A stretch of 34,944 nt of DNA. It comes from a virus. How positions within the stretch are numbered: the first letter of the stretch is position 1; the number at the start of each line of letters is the position of its first letter. Shown in pieces: positions 10,535 to 26,787 of this stretch. Both the position numbers and the translations under genes were made by a program. The DNA lies in the IMG/VR virus record IMGVR_UViG_3300035010_000017, positions 1-34,944 of that record; one strand, 5' to 3'. Under the pieces are notes generated by a model. That model was given only the letters and a program-made list of their open reading frames with translations. It searched no databases and was not told where the DNA came from.

Positions 10535-13500
10535 TCAACCGTTGGAGGCTTTCCGCTGCAGGCGAGCAAGGTCTGTGTCACGTCCGGACTTGCGAGCAGC
10601 GGTACTGACATTCCCAACGGCGCTAACCGTAGCTTGGGCGCCAGCCGCTACTGTCTGCGTCAGGACAGCAAGATCGGCGCGCAAGGCTCGGATTTCGCGC
10701 GCCATGGCACCATTGTCATTGCTAGGCGCAACGCCACGATTCATCGCCTCTAGTTGCGGCCGGAACATGCGCGTTGCCATGGCATTGGCAACGTACTCCT
10801 GCCCATGCACATAGCCGGCGATCTGGCCTTCCATACCGCCTGTGAAGCCGCCCTGAGCATAGCCAGGCATGACCACTTCACCCTTGCCGCGAGCACCATC
10901 GGCAAAGCGCTTGTAAATCTCGGCTGTTAGTCCACCAGCCTTCTGTATTTCTTTTGCCCACCAAGCAGCGCCCCCTGCGTCGGCATCACGGCCAAGCACG
11001 TTTTCATAGAGGCGATCAACCAAGGCCGATGTGCGATCCTGTTGCGCAGTACCGAGCTGTTTGTTGGCGAGTTCCAGTGCCCGGACGGCATCAGCTACCG
11101 ACAACACTGAATTATTGATGTCGATCAGGTGGCCGACCTGGGCATTGAGAACACCGAGCTGCTTCTCTGTTTCAGTTACCTGCTTGGTTGCACGAGCAAG
11201 AGCCTGGTCAAGCGTGGCATCAACCTGCTCCCAAATCCGCATGTAGCCTTCGGAGGTGCCGTAATAGGCGCGCGCCTCTTCCAGGTACTGGCGAGACACG
11301 TTCTCCAGTTCGCCAATGGCGTCCTGATCACCCGCGAGTGCCTTCTGCCGAGTTTCCATGAAGTCTCGCTCCGAGGCCTTCAGGCGGTCGATAGGCGACA
11401 AAGGCGAGATGCCCTGGTCAAAGCGAAGGCTCTGCTTGAAGGCTTCCAGAGAGCGGATGAACTGCTTGTTGCGTTCGATCACCTGATTTAGTGCTGAAAC
11501 TTCAGCATCATAGGCGGCACGCAGATTGCCACGAGCGCGATCAACAGCCTCTTGAGCATCAGCAACAGCCTTGTCCAGACCAGCCGTTCCGAGCGCTCCG
11601 GTCAGACCGGACGCGATGTCAGGGAAAATGGCTGCTAGACGCGCCAGTTCGGCTTCGCTCAGATTGGCTTCATCCGCGATCTTCTGCAGCGTCAGGTTTA
11701 GCTCGGTGAGCGCAAGGCTGCCGTCGGCGCCTAGCTGTTCAGCATCCTTGAGCCTGGTATTGTAGAGTTCCTGTGCGGCAGCGACCTCGTTGAGGTAGCT
11801 ATTGCCCTGCAGCGCGTTGACCGATGCCTGCAGATCCTTTTCGTACTGGCGTGCGAGTGTCGCTGGCAGATTGGCCAGTGCCGCTTCGATCTCCCGGACC
11901 AAGTTGTAGTCTTTGGCCTTCTTGGCCAACCCAATATATTCCTGAGCCTGACGGTTCGCGTCCGCTAAAGCCTTGGCGTAGCCGGAAACCACCTCACCAT
12001 TCATGCTGTCGATGAACTGCTCGATTGCCGGACGGACCTGATTAAGTTTTTCGCGGGCTTCTTTCAGGGCCTTATTTGCGCCGAATAGACCGCCGACGAA
12101 ACCAGCGATACCGCCGATCACCGCTCCGATTGGTCCCATGGCCGCACCCGACAGCGCCCCACCAAGAGCACCCATGATCGGGTTTTGCGTCTGAGCGCCA
12201 ATGCCAAAACCACCAAGACCGGCACCAGCCATGCCGCTTAGGCCGCCACCACCCTTGAGCAGCCCCATCAGGCCATCCTGAGCACCAGCCTCCGTCCCCT
12301 TTTTGGAGCCCTGAAATATGGCATCGAAGATTTTGGTCGAGCCACCAGCGTTGTCATTGGCTGCGTTCGGAGCGCCAAAACTCTCGAACAGCTTGCCCAG
12401 GTTCGCCTGCCCCATCTGAGCAAAGCCGCTGATCAGCTTGTCGAAGAACTCGTCCATATCCTCCATAGGACCGTCGAACAGCGAGCCGAGAGCAGAGCCT
12501 AGCGTGTCCATAAGCACGTCCGAGGTTTCCTCTGCGCGGTCCTCGAGGTTGCGTAGCCCCATGTCGGCAGCAGAAGTCAGATTTGCGATCTCTTTTTCAA
12601 CGCCCTGTATTTGAAAACTGTCGAGCTTGTCCCGGTACTGATCAAGCAGCGACATCAGTTCAGCCGCTTCCTTGCGGGCGTACTCAGCAGGAAACAGCTT
12701 TTCCGCCAGCTTGTCGGCGGTGCTGATGAAGCTGTTGAAGTCGCGCTCGGCATCCTTGAGCGCTTTGGCAGCCCCGCCGGACTTGGCAGCGACTTGATCG
12801 AAGCTGGCACCGGAAGCGGCAAGCTCTTGGTTCATAGCAGCCGTGGCACGAGCAAGCTCATCCTCTGATGCGCCCGCTGCTGTAAGCTGTGCCTGAAGCT
12901 CAGCATAGCGGTCCGAGATACGGGCTGCCGCAGCCTCACGGTCGGCCATACCGCCAATCGCCGCCTGACGTTCAGCCTGCTCGAGCTGCGCCGTCGCATC
13001 GGTGAGCCCTGTAACTTGATTTTTAGCCGCTTCAAAAGCCGAAGTTAGCTCGGCTTCGCGCGCTAGATAGGCGTCGCGGGATAGCGTCAGGCCATCGAGA
13101 GCCTTCTTGCCCTTGTCATACTCTATGGTGGCGGCAGCAAGGGAGTTCTGAGCCTGCTGGGCGGCGGCCACGGCAGGGATCAGGGCCTGCAAGCGCTGTA
13201 GTGAGCCGGCATAGACATTGGCGGCACCAGCGGCAGTGCCGTAGCCCTGAGCCGCTTGAAGTGCGGCATTAAGGGATGCTTGCATGGCGGCTGCGGCGGC
13301 ACGGAGGGAAGCCTCCAGCGCGCGGCTTTCATCTATCCACTCTTGGATGCCGCTGCGGATGGTTCCGAAGTCCTGCAGCTCCAGCCCTAGATTGCTCGCT
13401 GCGGTGCCTGCCTCACTCAGCGCCGCCTCCGCTGCGCGAGCGGCCTCAACGTTGGCCAGCATTGCATCAGCGATGTTGCGCAGCACGCTATCAGGGTTGT

Positions 13501-14569
13501 TCTGGATGAAAGCCTTGAGGCTGAGGGCTAGCCCGTCCAGATCGGGATTTGCGGCCTGGGCAGCGGATTGGATTTCCAGCAGTGCATCACGCTGGGCAAG
13601 CGCCGCTTGCCCGCCTTCCAGCATCAGAGACATCAATGTCTCTTGCGTAGTATTAGTCGCTAAAATCTGCTGGCGCACGGCCGCAAGCGCTTCTGCATAG
13701 GCCTCTTGCTTCTCAACGACATCGCCAGACAGCGCTAGGTTCACCTCCGCCTGGGGAAGTTTCCGGGCTTCATCGCCAGCGCGCTGAGCCGCTTCACGGA
13801 CGCTATCGTACCCCTGGAGGATGGTATCGAGCCACTTGTCGTGTTCCTCCAGAGCGCTTGCCGCTTCCTCCGCTTCGTCCGCTGATGAGGTGAAAAACTG
13901 AATGGCAGCCGCACTTGCTGCAACGAAGCCGATGGTGAGCAGGCTGACTGGGTTGATGATCGAGACAAACGCAGATGCAAGGCCTCGAAGTGGGTTCTGC
14001 ATCGTGTTGAGGACAGAACTTAACTGCGTGCCCTGCTGTAGGGCGATCATGAGCGGGTTCATGCCCATTGCCGCAGTAACGCCGATGTCCTGGAACTGCG
14101 CCGCAATATTGCCAGTGCTGCCCGCCGCATTGTCGTTTGCGGCCGCAAGGCGGTTCATCGCTACGGCTTGCTGGTCGACAGCCTGACTAGTTGCATTGAT
14201 TTGCGTGCGAGCTGCGGTCTCGGCAGCGGCTAGGCGCTGAAACTTGCCCTGAAGCAACTCGGTAGTTTGAGCCATCTGGCCAGCGTTAATATGCCCCACG
14301 TCGAAGGCCCGGTTGACGATCTGCATCTCACGGTCAAGCTGCCGCTGAATCCAGACCATACGGTCGTTCTTTTCGATCAGCCGATCATATGAACCTGCAA
14401 CCGACAGCACCCGCTTGGCCGTGCGGTCGGTCGTTAACGCCATTGCCTCGCCGGTCTGGCCTACGCGGTTTTGCGCATCACTGACCTTGTTCAAATCGCC
14501 CGCGACCTTATCCAGGCCCTGCGACTGACCGCGAACAGTCAGCGTCCGAATGGCGTTCAGTGATGGCAT
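10535..14569 (-). CDS. Tail tape measure protein
   Basis: A 1344-residue protein that sets siphovirus tail length and is the longest gene in the window. The start is the ATG at 14569, with GGAG 6 bases upstream; a TTG at 14593 is less likely. The N-terminal 120 residues are helical, followed by the tape-measure segment NPLMIALQQGTQLSSVL and a hydrophobic stretch near residues 205-230. Long alanine-rich coiled coils cover about 260-740. A glycine-rich hydrophobic patch lies near 760-840 (GAVIGGIAGFVGGLFGANKA). Near the C-terminus there is a DUF4214-like block (LYENVLGRDADAGGAAWW) and the common ending GYVHGQEYVANAMATRMF. It lies directly downstream of the frameshifted chaperones, as expected. 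Confidence 0.95.
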   Translation of the reverse strand: MPSLNAIRTLTVRGQSQGLDKVAGDLNKVSDAQNRVGQTGEAMALTTDRTAKRVLSVAGSYDRLIEKNDRMVWIQRQLDREMQIVNRAFDVGHINAGQMAQTTELLQGKFQRLAAAETAARTQINATSQAVDQQAVAMNRLAAANDNAAGSTGNIAAQFQDIGVTAAMGMNPLMIALQQGTQLSSVLNTMQNPLRGLASAFVSIINPVSLLTIGFVAASAAAIQFFTSSADEAEEAASALEEHDKWLDTILQGYDSVREAAQRAGDEARKLPQAEVNLALSGDVVEKQEAYAEALAAVRQQILATNTTQETLMSLMLEGGQAALAQRDALLEIQSAAQAANPDLDGLALSLKAFIQNNPDSVLRNIADAMLANVEAARAAEAALSEAGTAASNLGLELQDFGTIRSGIQEWIDESRALEASLRAAAAAMQASLNAALQAAQGYGTAAGAANVYAGSLQRLQALIPAVAAAQQAQNSLAAATIEYDKGKKALDGLTLSRDAYLAREAELTSAFEAAKNQVTGLTDATAQLEQAERQAAIGGMADREAAAARISDRYAELQAQLTAAGASEDELARATAAMNQELAASGASFDQVAAKSGGAAKALKDAERDFNSFISTADKLAEKLFPAEYARKEAAELMSLLDQYRDKLDSFQIQGVEKEIANLTSAADMGLRNLEDRAEETSDVLMDTLGSALGSLFDGPMEDMDEFFDKLISGFAQMGQANLGKLFESFGAPNAANDNAGGSTKIFDAIFQGSKKGTEAGAQDGLMGLLKGGGGLSGMAGAGLGGFGIGAQTQNPIMGALGGALSGAAMGPIGAVIGGIAGFVGGLFGANKALKEAREKLNQVRPAIEQFIDSMNGEVVSGYAKALADANRQAQEYIGLAKKAKDYNLVREIEAALANLPATLARQYEKDLQASVNALQGNSYLNEVAAAQELYNTRLKDAEQLGADGSLALTELNLTLQKIADEANLSEAELARLAAIFPDIASGLTGALGTAGLDKAVADAQEAVDRARGNLRAAYDAEVSALNQVIERNKQFIRSLEAFKQSLRFDQGISPLSPIDRLKASERDFMETRQKALAGDQDAIGELENVSRQYLEEARAYYGTSEGYMRIWEQVDATLDQALARATKQVTETEKQLGVLNAQVGHLIDINNSVLSVADAVRALELANKQLGTAQQDRTSALVDRLYENVLGRDADAGGAAWWAKEIQKAGGLTAEIYKRFADGARGKGEVVMPGYAQGGFTGGMEGQIAGYVHGQEYVANAMATRMFRPQLEAMNRGVAPSNDNGAMAREIRALRADLAVLTQTVAAGAQATVSAVGNVSTAARKSGRDTDLARLQRKASNG

Positions 14570-14620
14570 GGATTGCTCCAAGGCAGAAGCCAAGCTAGCT
14601 TCGGTGAAAACGAGGGTAGA

Positions 14621-14887
14621 ATGAGACAGCGCGTAAATCTCGGAACGACGGTCGACCTGACGCCCACTGCAGCCTGGGGCGCGGCGCTGACTATCTTTGG
14701 ACCCGTACTGAGCGGCATCCTCTACTTCCGAATGATCGGCGCTGCAGTCGCTCGCGAGGACGGCACTATCTGGGGATGGCTGCTGCTCGCCACAGCCTTT
14801 GCAAGTTTATTGGGACCGATCCTGATCTTGCTGGGGCTACGGCTCATCACTTCGGGCGAAATCGAGGACATTCAACCACGCCCTTGA
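14621..14887 (+). CDS. Plus-strand two-transmembrane small protein (moron-like)
   Basis: An 88-residue protein with two clear membrane segments: residues about 16-40 (AAWGAALTIFGPVLSGILYFRMIGA) read in parts, and 50-75 (GWLLLATAFASLLGPILILLGL). It ends in a short acidic-polar tail. The ATG at 14621 has GAGGG about 6 bases upstream. It lies opposite to the tail operon, in the gap between the tape measure gene and the chaperone frameshift product, and overlaps the end of the latter by 16 bases in convergent orientation. I infer an inner-membrane moron, perhaps affecting superinfection, but the sequence gives no specific function. Confidence 0.6.
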   Translation: MRQRVNLGTTVDLTPTAAWGAALTIFGPVLSGILYFRMIGAAVAREDGTIWGWLLLATAFASLLGPILILLGLRLITSGEIEDIQPRP

Positions 14888-15629
14888 TCGCCCTTCCGCT
14901 CGGAAACCCACTTAAGGTACTCGCCGTCCATAGCTCGCAAGAGGTCGCGGAAGCGGTCAAACTCATCAAGGACAACGACTCCATACCGGCTGGCATACTG
15001 ATCAATAGCGGAGAACGGGATCGCCCCCGCTCCGCCCAGATTGATCGGCCGGTCGGTGTGCAACTCCCACCATGCTGACCAGACGAAGTTGAGATGATCG
15101 AGCAGTTCTGGCTTAGTCTGGAGCGCTTTCGGCTCTTCGCCGGTCTCCTCTGCCAGGCCTTCCAGAAATTCAGCCTTTTCGCTCCATTCGAGATGCCAAT
15201 GGAGCGCAGCTGTTAGTTTCCCGCTGCTTCCTCAGTCGACGCCATAGCCTCTTCCGATGCCACGGTTGCAGCCCAGACAACAGCATCGCGGAATGGGCGA
15301 TAATCTGGATTGAGCAAGATGGTCTTGGCTGCTGCCTTGTCGAACTTCAGCGGCTTGCCATCGTCTCCTTCAAGGCCATCCCAGTCGATCAACACGGTAT
15401 CGACCAGGCAGGTGACGTTGATCTCGTCCAGCTTGGCCGTGTCAATGATGCGGCCGGCCTTCTTGAACTGACGCGGTGTGGCCTCCACCAACTGGCTGGC
15501 CAGCCGACGATAGTCGCTGTTGCCGATGCCCCGAACCTTCAGGCGCAGATCACCCATCTCTGGGATGTTATCAACCCAGGCGCCCTGCTCTACCTTGGCG
15601 TTGTCAATCTTGGCGTGTCCGAGCTTCAT
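14872..15629 (-). CDS. Tail assembly chaperone gpGT, made by programmed -1 frameshift
   Basis: A fusion of about 252 residues, formed when ribosomes on the gpG frame slip back one base at GGGAAAC (15222-15216), right before the gpG stop TAA. The extension re-reads base 15216 and continues as LTAALHWHLEWSEKAEFLEG to a TGA at 14872. It adds about 114 residues that include FVWSAWWELHTDRPI, IPFSAIDQYASRYG and LRAMDGEYLKW. The T part has no good start codon of its own near its 5' end, and its frame is open right across the slip site. By analogy with lambda gpGT it binds and protects the tape measure protein during tail assembly. The gene lies immediately upstream of the tape measure gene. Confidence 0.88.
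15180..15222 (-). promoter_or_regulatory. Programmed -1 ribosomal frameshift signal (slippery site plus stem-loop)
   Basis: On the minus strand the gpG reading frame is split as G GGA AAC, which is a perfect X XXY YYZ heptamer (15222-15216), followed at once by TAA. After a 9-base spacer, CGCTCCATT (15206-15198 region) pairs perfectly with AATGGAGCG (15188-15180 region), giving a 9-base-pair stem with a 9-base loop. Heptamer, spacing and stem all match known bacterial frameshift stimulators; lambda G/GT uses the related GGGAAAG. Confidence 0.92.
15213..15629 (-). CDS. Tail assembly chaperone gpG (unshifted product)
   Basis: A 138-residue protein read without frameshifting. The N-terminal region (KLGHAKIDNAKVEQGAWVDNIPEMGDLRLKVRGIGN in parts) resembles other phage tail assembly proteins, with a beta hairpin followed by a helical body. 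Its C-terminus ASTEEAAGN is acidic and unstructured, as expected at a G/T junction. The start overlaps the stop of the preceding small gene as ATGA, with GAAGGA about 8 bases upstream. It should be made in large excess over the gpGT fusion, and together they coat the tape measure protein before tube polymerisation. Confidence 0.85.
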   Translation of the reverse strand: MKLGHAKIDNAKVEQGAWVDNIPEMGDLRLKVRGIGNSDYRRLASQLVEATPRQFKKAGRIIDTAKLDEINVTCLVDTVLIDWDGLEGDDGKPLKFDKAAAKTILLNPDYRPFRDAVVWAATVASEEAMASTEEAAGN

Positions 15630-15825: not shown

Positions 15826-16026
15826 CTAGAAGCTCATGGATTTGCAAAGCTCTAAGGCTTGCGTCTCGGTGAACCCCGCTTCAAGATGCGCCAAGTATGA
15901 AGCTCTGCGGAGTTCAGCCAGTGTCTTGGCATTCTCGATCATCGCGGGCAGTTGCCGGCGGAGGGCATCTCCGGCGGCTCTGAGTTCATCTTTGGTCGGC
16001 ATCTCAACCAAGGTGGGGCCGCTCAC
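15826..16026 (-). CDS. Small helical protein, unknown phage family
   Basis: About 66 residues if it begins at the GTG at 16026, which overlaps the stop of the tail tube gene (TAGTG). The ATG at 16002 (MPTKDELRAAG) or a TTG at 16059 are alternatives, and none has a strong ribosome binding site. The body is a run of helices ending in ASYLAHLEAGFTETQALELCKSM, a segment seen in other phage small proteins of the tail operon. Function is not known. The tight packing with its neighbours supports it as a real gene. Confidence 0.6.
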   Translation of the reverse strand: MSGPTLVEMPTKDELRAAGDALRRQLPAMIENAKTLAELRRASYLAHLEAGFTETQALELCKSMSF

Positions 16027-16955
16027 TAGGCCACGGCCCTTTCCACCATCAATGTGCAATCTTCGGTCTCATCGAGCAGAGCGCGGAACGGGATGGCAGC
16101 CATCACGTCATCGTCGTTGCCGCCAGCGGTGATGTTGCCGTCGCCAAACTTGATGCGTGGGAGCGTGATCGAATACTTCTCGCCGGTTTCATTCCCCACG
16201 TCGAAGGTGATCGAGCCCTCGCCATGGTCAAGAACTCCCTGGTAGAGCGCCTTGTTCTGGAAATAGGCTTCGATGCTGCCTGTGACCTCGAACCGGCCTT
16301 CACCGAACTCCGCAGAGTAGAGCGAGCCCACTTCTGGACGGGTGCGGAGACCGTTGTTGATCTCCAGCGACAGGCTGCGAACACGCGGCGCGGGGCTAAC
16401 GCCCGCTACCACCAAAGCGCTGACGCTTGCCGACGCGGTTGTCACAGGCGTTGTCTCTGGATCGGCATAGGTCGCGCCGGTCACGATGGCTTCAGCCAAG
16501 GCTTCCATGCGGCCCATGATGCCGAACGAGCCAGTAATGGCTGCCCGTGCAGCGATCGACAGCGACATGGTGTTGATGCGGCAGCCGCTGAACCGGCGGA
16601 ACGTGTCGGTGGTGCCAAGCTCATAGGTTTCTTCGAAGGTGAAGAACTTCTGCGCCAGTCCATTCTTGAGCACGTTGGATGACCAGGTGCTGCACATCAC
16701 ACCTTCCAAGAACTGATCGAACGACCCATAAGTCAGTTCGAAGTCGTAGGAGCCAGTAACGTCCTGACCAAGCTGGAACTCGTCGCGGACGTTGCGATCG
16801 GCCTGGCGCTCATTGCTGGTGCCGGTCGACTTTGTGGTGCGCAGCCCGCCGCTTGTGGTGCGGACGGTCTTGAACGCTGGTGTGGCTGGCGTTGTGCCAA
16901 ACGCAGTCTCTGCGACAGCGGCAACCCGCACGCCGCTTCCGGAAGCGAAAGCCAT
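16026..16955 (-). CDS. Major tail tube protein
   Basis: A 309-residue, beta-rich protein with the profile of siphovirus tail tube proteins. It has an N-terminal GSGVRVAAVAETAFGTTPATPAF stretch, which is the typical strand before the tube domain. A central core contains DVTGSYDFELTYGSFDQFLEGVM, and the C-terminal part has GRFEVTGSIEAYFQNKALYQGVL and an IPFRALLDE ending. Together these match the lambda gpV/TTP-like arrangement. AGGAG is placed 7 bases before the ATG. It follows the tail terminator and precedes the chaperones, which is the canonical siphovirus order. Confidence 0.85.
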   Translation of the reverse strand: MAFASGSGVRVAAVAETAFGTTPATPAFKTVRTTSGGLRTTKSTGTSNERQADRNVRDEFQLGQDVTGSYDFELTYGSFDQFLEGVMCSTWSSNVLKNGLAQKFFTFEETYELGTTDTFRRFSGCRINTMSLSIAARAAITGSFGIMGRMEALAEAIVTGATYADPETTPVTTASASVSALVVAGVSPAPRVRSLSLEINNGLRTRPEVGSLYSAEFGEGRFEVTGSIEAYFQNKALYQGVLDHGEGSITFDVGNETGEKYSITLPRIKFGDGNITAGGNDDDVMAAIPFRALLDETEDCTLMVERAVA

Positions 16956-22941: not shown

Positions 22942-24762
22942 CTAGACCATCCTCACAGCGCGATTCTCATATGGCGAGCGCTTGACCTCTGCCTTCTCAT
23001 TTGTCGCCGCGCCGACGGCCATCGCGATCGTCACCATGCCGTCAATCCTTCCACGGGAGCGCTCCTTGTCGAAAGCGCGGTTCTCTTGGCCGTCACTGAC
23101 GACATGGGCGTTAGCGGCGCAGCTGTAGGTCACAGGCGAAGCGTCGATGGTGATCGACTTTTCGAGGATGCGATCTTCCAGCCGCTCGATCGATCGCGGC
23201 ATGGTCAGCTGCTTGTCTTCGAACCTGACCAGCTTGCCCTGGGCGTGACTGACCAGCTTCAGGCCCTTGCCAGCCGGTTCATCCGGTCCCTTGTAGCGCC
23301 AAACGTCAAAGCCGATTGCTTCGCAGGCAGCGATGAAGTCGGACATGCCGGCCGGGTCAAAGGCGAGGAACTCGACCCTGTGCGCCGAACAGATCTCCTT
23401 GACCTTGGCCGCGACGAAGGTCTTGTCGATCGTTGCGCCGGGTACAGCGGTTAGGCAGGCGGCCGGATCCAGGGCCCACTTGTCATAGGGCGCCATATCG
23501 GCGCGGGCCCGATCTTCGATGCCGTCCTTTGTCGTCCAATAAAACGTCTTAACCCAGAGGTGCCCGCGATCATCGATCCAACAGACTGAAAGCGACGTGA
23601 GGTCGTTTTTCTTTGATAGGTCGAGGCTCAGCCAGCATTTGAAGCCCTTCATCTTGGCTTCGTCTACGGCGCCCTGCACTGCGGCCCAGGCTTCCTCCGC
23701 AATCCAGAACTCGGTTGAGCCGACCGGAATGCCGAAATAGAGGCGCTTGACCGACAGCGCAGTAGACAGCAGCTGCTTGGCGGTGTTGACGCGCCCCTGA
23801 ATGTTTTCGAGCGGGAACGTCACGCCCAGCGCCGGCAGTGCCTTTGACCAGACTTCCGGCTTGTCGAAAACGGTATCCCGGTCGGCCTTGTCGACACGCG
23901 CGACAAACGAGAACGCTTCGTCGTCGTCGAACTCGCCCTTGGCGACCCGCTGATAAAACTCTGAATACTCGGTTCCAACAATCTGGTTCGACGCCGGCGT
24001 ATTGGTACCCAGGAGCATCAGCGCATCGCCGGGCATCTTGGCGATCGCCTCTTTCCAGAGCTCGATCGACGTGTTCGTTTTGAACTCGTGGATCTCGTCG
24101 GCCGCCACCAGCGTCGGCTTTGGTCCGGACACGGCCTCGCCATTCGCTAATGCCTGGAACAGCGCCTCGTGCTCGGGAAACTCAATCTTCCAAGCGTTGT
24201 CGCCTTCGCCGCGGATTAGAACATCGCTGCGAGAGGCCATGCTGTTCCCATCTTCATGCCCCGGCGTGGTCGCGCGGCACATGGCAACAGCATCCTTGAA
24301 GAGCACGTTGGCCGTGTTCTTGTCCTGACCGATAGCGAAGGCCTTGGCACGGTGAATGCCATAAAATCCCGTCATATAGAGGCCGATCGCCGCCATCAGC
24401 GGTGATTTAGCCTGACCTTTGCCCGTCTCGATCCATCCGGACCGAAAACGCATGCGGCCCGACTCCTTGCGCCAGCCAAACAGCGACCCGGCAACAAACG
24501 TGTGCCAGGGCAAAGGGTGGAACGGCTGACCGACGAACGAGCCTTCCGTAATCGACAGCATTGCTGGCAGGAAACGCAGCGGCCGGGTGGCATGTGGCAC
24601 CGACCAGTGGAGCCCCCGGGCTTGTCCATCGCGCAGATCGCGCATGTGGCGCTCTGCAGCTGCTGCTACCAGCTCGCCGACGACGAACTTTCCGGCCAGA
24701 GCGTCTTGCGCCCAAGCCGTAACTGGATCAGCCGGCGCCGTTTCTCTTGCTCGTGAACTCAT
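22942..24762 (-). CDS. Terminase large subunit
   Basis: A 606-residue DNA-packaging motor. The ATG at 24762 is chosen because the frame further upstream reads as a shadow of the small terminase gene. The ATPase domain has the Walker A-like ETGKGQAKS at 112-120 and Walker B VAADE at 219-223, with coupling motif LGTNTP at 251-256. The nuclease domain shows D381 in SLDLSKKNDLTS, a second acidic strand FLAFDPAGMSDF, and a C-terminal RIDGMVTIAMAVG segment with the third Asp. This matches the Terminase_1/YmfN-like group used by HK97-type phages. It overlaps the small subunit gene by about 35 bases. Confidence 0.95.
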   Translation of the reverse strand: MSSRARETAPADPVTAWAQDALAGKFVVGELVAAAAERHMRDLRDGQARGLHWSVPHATRPLRFLPAMLSITEGSFVGQPFHPLPWHTFVAGSLFGWRKESGRMRFRSGWIETGKGQAKSPLMAAIGLYMTGFYGIHRAKAFAIGQDKNTANVLFKDAVAMCRATTPGHEDGNSMASRSDVLIRGEGDNAWKIEFPEHEALFQALANGEAVSGPKPTLVAADEIHEFKTNTSIELWKEAIAKMPGDALMLLGTNTPASNQIVGTEYSEFYQRVAKGEFDDDEAFSFVARVDKADRDTVFDKPEVWSKALPALGVTFPLENIQGRVNTAKQLLSTALSVKRLYFGIPVGSTEFWIAEEAWAAVQGAVDEAKMKGFKCWLSLDLSKKNDLTSLSVCWIDDRGHLWVKTFYWTTKDGIEDRARADMAPYDKWALDPAACLTAVPGATIDKTFVAAKVKEICSAHRVEFLAFDPAGMSDFIAACEAIGFDVWRYKGPDEPAGKGLKLVSHAQGKLVRFEDKQLTMPRSIERLEDRILEKSITIDASPVTYSCAANAHVVSDGQENRAFDKERSRGRIDGMVTIAMAVGAATNEKAEVKRSPYENRAVRMV

Positions 24763-25168
24763 CGGATGCGCGAACCACCGTCTTTTTGCGCTCCGCCTTC
24801 GTCGCCGCAGACCGGCGCCGCGGGGAGAGGCCAAATTCTGCTTCAAGGGTCGCTGCGTCGGAGCCCATCTCACGCATGGCGGCAAAGTGCGGACTTGTTC
24901 GGGCAATCGCCCGAGCGTTGCCACGCTTCGGCTTGGTGACAGCGCCATGCTCGGCGACTTCGCGCAGGCTGCGGTCGTACAAGACGTAGGAGACAACTAG
25001 GCGCTGCAGAGCGTGCGCGTTGCCAGGAGCCATCAAGCCCCGATCGCGCAACTCGGTGGTGATCCGTCGCCAGTGTTCGACCGCAGCGCCGATCTCCAGC
25101 GGATCATTGAACAGGCTTTCCCAGTCGGGTTCGGGGACGATACTGCCGGTGTTTTCGATGAGGTTCAT
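24728..25168 (-). CDS. Terminase small subunit, P27 family
   Basis: A 146-residue protein resembling P27-type small terminases. The helical core has DPLEIGAAVEHWRRITTELRDRGLM and HALQRLVVSYVLYDRSL, followed by KPKRGNARAIARTSPHFAAMREM. The C-terminal tail is basic (SPRRRSAATKAERKKTV), suitable for DNA or large-subunit contact. It recognises the packaging site and recruits the large subunit. In HK97-like phages it normally follows an HNH gene directly; here two opposite-strand genes come between. The ATG is preceded by a weak GGA-rich site. Confidence 0.85.
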   Translation of the reverse strand: MNLIENTGSIVPEPDWESLFNDPLEIGAAVEHWRRITTELRDRGLMAPGNAHALQRLVVSYVLYDRSLREVAEHGAVTKPKRGNARAIARTSPHFAAMREMGSDAATLEAEFGLSPRRRSAATKAERKKTVVRASDEFTSKRNGAG

Positions 25169-25913: not shown

Positions 25914-26414
25914 ATGACCGACGATTCTAACCTGACACCAGGTGGCCCCGACAACACCGGAACAAGCGACCAAGCTAACCTGCCAGAAGTTCCAAGCGTA
26001 TTAGATCAACCTGACGGTACCGACTGGTTCCTAGCTACACTAATACGCAATGCCGAACTTGGCCTGGAGGCTGGCGTGACACTTCAAGTCGGTGGATCGC
26101 TGGTGACAGGTCGGATCATCTCCGGTCGCAAGTACTTCGAACTGCTCGGCGAGCAGGTTGCACAGACCTTTCAAATGACTGGCGAAGGTGACCGAGAGCA
26201 ATGGAAAGCCATCGTCGTCGAAGCTTACTCCGGGTGGGCGCAGGCTTTCCCGCCACAAGGCGAGGCCTCAAACCAGGGATACAATTACATTCAATTAGCG
26301 GAAGCTCGCATTTGCGATGCAGCTGGCAATTGGATTTTTGGAGAAAACACACTTTGGCGCGGCAAACTGGCCGCTGTAGATGGATTCATACCTGGCGAGA
26401 TACAGCGCAGGTAA
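25914..26414 (+). CDS. GvpU-family (gas vesicle accessory) protein, moron
   Basis: A 166-residue soluble acidic protein. After a disordered 35-residue N-terminus, the body follows the pattern of GvpU, a small accessory protein of Bacillus gas vesicle clusters: DWFLATLIRNAELGLEAGVT, then LQVGGSLVTGRIISGRKYF with ELLGEQ, then YIQLAEARI, and finally TLWRGKLAAVDGFIPGEI. The WRGK-x-x-x-VDGF ending is the most telling element, recalled from known GvpU sequences. No other gas vesicle gene is present, so the role is probably not flotation. GGAG sits about 8 bases before the ATG. It is convergent with, and overlaps, the HNH gene by 29 bases. GC is low (about 42 percent in one counted line). Confidence 0.72.
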   Translation: MTDDSNLTPGGPDNTGTSDQANLPEVPSVLDQPDGTDWFLATLIRNAELGLEAGVTLQVGGSLVTGRIISGRKYFELLGEQVAQTFQMTGEGDREQWKAIVVEAYSGWAQAFPPQGEASNQGYNYIQLAEARICDAAGNWIFGENTLWRGKLAAVDGFIPGEIQRR

Positions 26415-26787
26415 GGTTCCAAGGATGATCGGCAGCAGTCGGTCGCCCGCTAATGTCGTTGCCCTGCTCGCCATACCCATGCTCTTCACGCTGCTTGACG
26501 ATGTCATGGTCGTCGGCACATAGCGGCTGCCAGTTCTTTCGATCCCAGAAAAGGCGTTGGTCGCCTCGGTGCGGTGTCTTGTGATCTACCCTCAAGCCGA
26601 TGCGGCGAGGGTTGGTCTCAAGTATGCCGTCCATGCGCATCGTGCCGGGGTTGAGTAGGCCACGCGCCTTGCACTTCACGCAGAACTGGTTTTCAGGATG
26701 GGCGAGGAATACCAAGCGCTCGCGTTGCCACTTGCTGCCGTAGCCACGTTGCGAAGTTGTTTCACGCTCAGGTGATTTGCGGGCCAT
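26386..26787 (-). CDS. HNH endonuclease
   Basis: A 133-residue HNH nuclease of the type that works with terminase at the packaging site of HK97-like phages. C36 and C39 (CVKC) begin a zinc knuckle. VDHKTPHRGD holds D68-H69, followed by LFWDRKNWQPLC with N85 and then H94 in ADDH. The usual fourth zinc ligand (a Cys in CxxCH) is replaced by D93 in CADDH, with C90 retained. The N-terminal YGSKWQRERLVFL is typical. The ATG has GGGAG about 5 bases upstream. It begins the late operon on the minus strand, but two opposite-strand genes separate it from small terminase. Confidence 0.88.
   Translation of the reverse strand: MARKSPERETTSQRGYGSKWQRERLVFLAHPENQFCVKCKARGLLNPGTMRMDGILETNPRRIGLRVDHKTPHRGDQRLFWDRKNWQPLCADDHDIVKQREEHGYGEQGNDISGRPTAADHPWNLTCAVSRQV

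Follow-up and report, generated by a model that had tools for sequence, protein, structure and literature searches.

Tail chaperone frameshifts in described phages and a proposed one in a new locus

The slippery heptamer of the lambda G and T genes is G_GGA_AAG. The -1 frameshift that produces gpGT in this phage (Levin 1993; Xu 2004, as described in PMC5009743) takes place at a low slippage rate that gives gpG and gpGT in a ratio of about 30:1, with G binding the tape measure protein, T binding the tail tube protein, and both being absent from the virion (PMC5009743). The heptamer GGGAAAC has been reported at gp18/gp19 of the Burkholderia phage KL1 (PMC3483164), and the same G_GGA_AAC is found in the Caulobacter phage Colossus (PMC3556154) and in the haloarchaeal virus HCTV-1 (PMC5009743). 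In E. coli, slippage is particularly frequent at heptamers that end in AAG, with A_AAA_AAG far shiftier than A_AAA_AAC (PMC5009743), so that the efficiency of the site in the host of the phage described here is not predictable.

We have analyzed a stretch of viral DNA of 34,944 nucleotides (the window), whose structural genes are encoded on the minus strand. A preliminary description had placed at 15180-15222 a programmed -1 frameshift making gpG and gpGT tail chaperones; the coordinates are correct and the strand, which had been left unstated, is minus. Like the lambda site, this one precedes the tape measure gene, has an X_XXY_YYZ heptamer close to where G ends, and is predicted to give one short and one long product, but the final base of the heptamer is C rather than G and the proteins belong to different sequence families. 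KL1 resembles the window in having GGGAAAC immediately 5' of the G stop and a predicted downstream stem-loop, and differs from it by an extra tail gene, gp20, which separates GT from the tape measure gene. From the sequence, the locus very probably yields, by programmed -1 ribosomal frameshifting, two tail assembly chaperones that share a start codon, a reading supported by the gene order, the matches to known domains and the conservation seen among relatives.

Table 1 Features of the tail chaperone locus and its neighbours, in window coordinates
Feature	Coordinates	Strand	Remarks
Tail tube protein	16026-16955	-	Upstream; Pfam Phage_tube_2 7e-54
gpG-type tail assembly chaperone ORF	15213-15629	-	138 aa, ATG start; PHROGs 8233 (3.4e-10) and 313 (9.9e-10)
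Slippery heptamer G_GGA_AAC	15216-15222	-	In-register equivalent in 42 of the 45 distinct gpG loci, window included
TAA stop, 0 frame	15213-15215	-	Directly 3' of the heptamer
Perfect stem (9 bp, loop of 9 nt, spacer of 9 nt from the heptamer)	15180-15206	-	Probable stimulatory hairpin
T part, -1 frame after the shift	14872-15216	-	114 residues past the junction, then TGA; PF23812 1.4e-16
Tape measure protein	10535-14593	-	Next gene, start codon uncertain; Pfam TMP_2 7.4e-13

Gene order and domain identity

The order of the genes (tail tube, G, T, tape measure) is the placement of the lambda G/GT type, and a frameshift of that type is therefore expected in this position, after the tail tube gene and before the tape measure gene. 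Besides its Pfam match, the tape measure gene also matches several families that PHROGs annotates as tail length tape measure. The T part, described earlier as typical of such proteins, indeed matches Phage_TAC_18 of Pfam (PF23812; 60.8 bits, passing the gathering cut-off of 27) and in PHROGs the tail chaperonin family 3817 (2.3e-21) as well as 8233. No significant Pfam match was obtained for the gpG part, which in PHROGs matches the two tail assembly chaperone families listed in Table 1. Along the 271 positions of phrog_8233 the G part corresponds to 8-113 and the T part to 141-255, and such consecutive stretches imply that in members of this family G and T are already fused.

An ORF of 88 aa with hydrophobic stretches like those of membrane proteins is located on the opposite strand (14621-14887, plus), in the interval from the T part to the tape measure gene. 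No relatives of it were found in the phage collection, PHROGs or the viral contigs, and it may be an insert specific to this genome or not a gene. Farther away, an HNH endonuclease (26386-26787, minus; phrog_2323, 2.5e-24) is located 5' of the large terminase gene (22942-24996), as is commonly seen in such phages.

The slippery site and the -1 frame

The gpG gene ends in GCG GGA AAC TAA, which places G_GGA_AAC in the phase required for a -1 slip and confirms the heptamer that had been noticed before the gpG stop. The -1 frame is bounded by a TGA at 15234-15232, just before the heptamer, and by another at 14874-14872; it is open for 116 codons counting the heptamer, and the extension of about 114 residues given previously is exact. 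In the main minus-strand ORFs of the window we found five in-frame X_XXY_YYZ heptamers (Y being A or T) in 9743 codons, among which GGGAAAC at the end of gpG is the only one that abuts a stop codon and the only one followed by a long -1 frame, with 116 codons against at most 50 at the other four.

A second of these heptamers, TTTTTTC (1438-1432, minus), lies 9 nt 5' of the stop of the ORF at 1420-2328. The open stretch of the -1 frame after it amounts to only about 50 codons, with an ATG close behind, and this heptamer is probably there by chance.

The T part could in principle be a gene that is started separately, in which case the heptamer would only reflect a conserved Gly-Asn or Lys-Asn at the end of G, and databases do often list the T part as an ORF of its own (Lacusarx gp018, Xp15 gp18, MAR10 gp041). 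In the window, however, the first codon of the -1 frame that could serve as a start (among ATG, GTG and TTG) is the TTG at 15063, 159 nt from the beginning of the heptamer and in the middle of the T domain, in keeping with the earlier remark that the -1 frame has no good start near its 5' end. Early starts are often lacking in the loci described below as well: from the heptamer to 60 nt beyond it, the -1 frame has no ATG in 36 of 42 loci and none of ATG, GTG and TTG in 23. The choice of codons at the site and the sequences of the same three phages, both given in the following section, also stand against a separate T gene, which we consider very unlikely.

Conservation in relatives and named phages

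Relatives were collected by a scan of viral contigs and another of bacterial genomes that gave 50 loci, corresponding together with the window to 45 distinct G sequences; they share ancestry and their counts are not independent, though the spread of G identity to the window is wide (about 30-58%). An in-register heptamer was found in all but three of the distinct loci (window included), as GGGAAAC in 23, AAAAAAC in 17 and GGGAAAG in 2. Each of these 42 loci has a -1 extension of 113-152 codons, and a common T motif could be recognized by eye in the translations. The stop codon is directly 3' of the heptamer in 29 of them and 3 to 60 nt farther in the remaining 13; in nine loci the 0-frame stop is 12-60 nt downstream with the heptamer still in register. 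As the heptamer stays in place where the stop moves, it is the heptamer and not the stop that is the conserved element.

The codons used at the site point in the same direction. The Gly codon is always GGA, which makes up 6.6% of the Gly codons elsewhere in these genes, and at sites of the AAAAAAC type the Lys codon is always AAA, which elsewhere accounts for 21% of the Lys codons; this choice runs against the usage of these genes and speaks against a by-product of a conserved protein ending. Furthermore, a single additional in-frame heptamer was found in 6176 codons of the G ORFs of these loci. The comparison indicates that the heptamer is under strong selection.

A one-base sequencing or assembly error splitting one gene into two would likewise separate the frames, but here the break recurs at a slippery motif in loci from independent sources (42 of the 45) and in six named phages, and an indel of this kind is vanishingly improbable. 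The composition of the heptamers also bears on the mechanism of the fusion, which might have been transcriptional slippage instead of ribosomal frameshifting given that the AAAAAAC relatives carry a run of six A. GGGAAAC, on the other hand, contains at most three identical bases in a row, GGGAAA followed by C or G is the form found in 25 of the 42 loci, and the preference for X_XXY_YYZ is a prediction of tandem tRNA slippage, all of which makes slippage during transcription extremely improbable and agrees with frameshifting by the ribosome.

The three loci without a heptamer (L050-L052) contain weak gpG homologues with 29-30% identity. A profile search with the T part detected no T domain in any frame of their available DNA, so they are not counter-examples to the frameshift; possibly they represent another chaperone arrangement. 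Relatives devoid of the heptamer and provided with a separately started T gene, the case named beforehand as contrary to the frameshift, were not found in this collection.

The phages RcRudolph, RcSimone-Hastad, Lacusarx, Xp15, MAR10 and vB_EliS-L02 all have GGGAAAC at the G stop or one codon before it, and the -1 frame past the heptamer is open in the six. For the two Rhodobacter phages (RcRudolph and RcSimone-Hastad) the annotation gives a tail assembly chaperone CDS joined from two pieces at GGGAAAC. They resemble the window in having GGGAAAC directly before the G stop and in their homologous T part, although they are distant from it (T part with about 30% identity). In Lacusarx, Xp15, MAR10 and vB_EliS-L02 two separate genes are annotated, and these records illustrate what had been anticipated, that an annotation of the two frames as separate genes misses the fusion.

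The downstream hairpin

The hairpin is present in the window as it was first described, with a spacer TAACAGCTG of 9 nt between the heptamer and the stem and the arms CGCTCCATT and AATGGAGCG forming nine perfect pairs around a loop of 9 nt. A perfect stem of at least 9 bp appeared at equivalent positions in 15 of 2000 synonymous recodings that kept the protein of the -1 frame, and a chance origin of the stem in the window is unlikely. By plain dinucleotide shuffling its folding is not exceptional (z-score of -1.1). Among frameshifts of the lambda G/GT type a stimulatory structure past the heptamer is frequent but is no requirement.

Over the family, the minimum free energy compared with synonymous recodings at the 42 loci gave a mean z of -0.44, with no clear support for a stem; values of p<0.05 were reached in 7 of the 42, loci that are not independent. 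The perfect stem had a mean length of 4.1 bp observed versus 3.5 expected (p<0.05 in 5 of 42 loci), and only three loci, the window among them, have one of at least 7 bp. L028, L033 and L040 show structures stronger than the protein demands while many other relatives do not, and the register of the stem differs from one relative to another. Conservation of the hairpin was not found across the 42 gpG/T loci. The comparison with related phages suggested at the outset had a divided result, favourable for the heptamer and unfavourable for the stem. The evidence for the frameshift is carried by the heptamer and the coding extension; the stem in the window is probably a local stimulator outside the conserved core.

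Proposed mechanism and implications

We propose that most ribosomes would release gpG on reaching the TAA that follows GGA-AAC, and that a minority would slip by -1 from G_GGA_AAC to GGG-AAA, with the 9-bp hairpin as a probable aid. The ribosomes that slipped would read through the T domain to give a gpGT of 252 residues. The lambda proteins suggest the roles by analogy: the tape measure protein may be a ligand of gpG and of the G portion of gpGT, the T part may recruit tail tube subunits, and both chaperones would depart before the tail is completed. More tentatively, and with considerable doubt, the heptamer of this phage family, which is found mostly in alphaproteobacterial genomes, could alternate between GGGAAAC and AAAAAAC and set the ratio of GT to G largely without a conserved downstream structure, hairpins like the present one being gained locally for tuning.

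The predicted fusion of G and T is of a kind already described, as phrog_8233 spans both halves, and the tail chaperone frameshift is well known in tailed phages. The understanding of the mechanism is unchanged. What the locus provides is a correction of the genome annotation, in which an ordinary gene caller would lose the T part or shorten it to a TTG ORF of 63 aa, and a well-sampled group of relatives by which a recoding family already known is enlarged.
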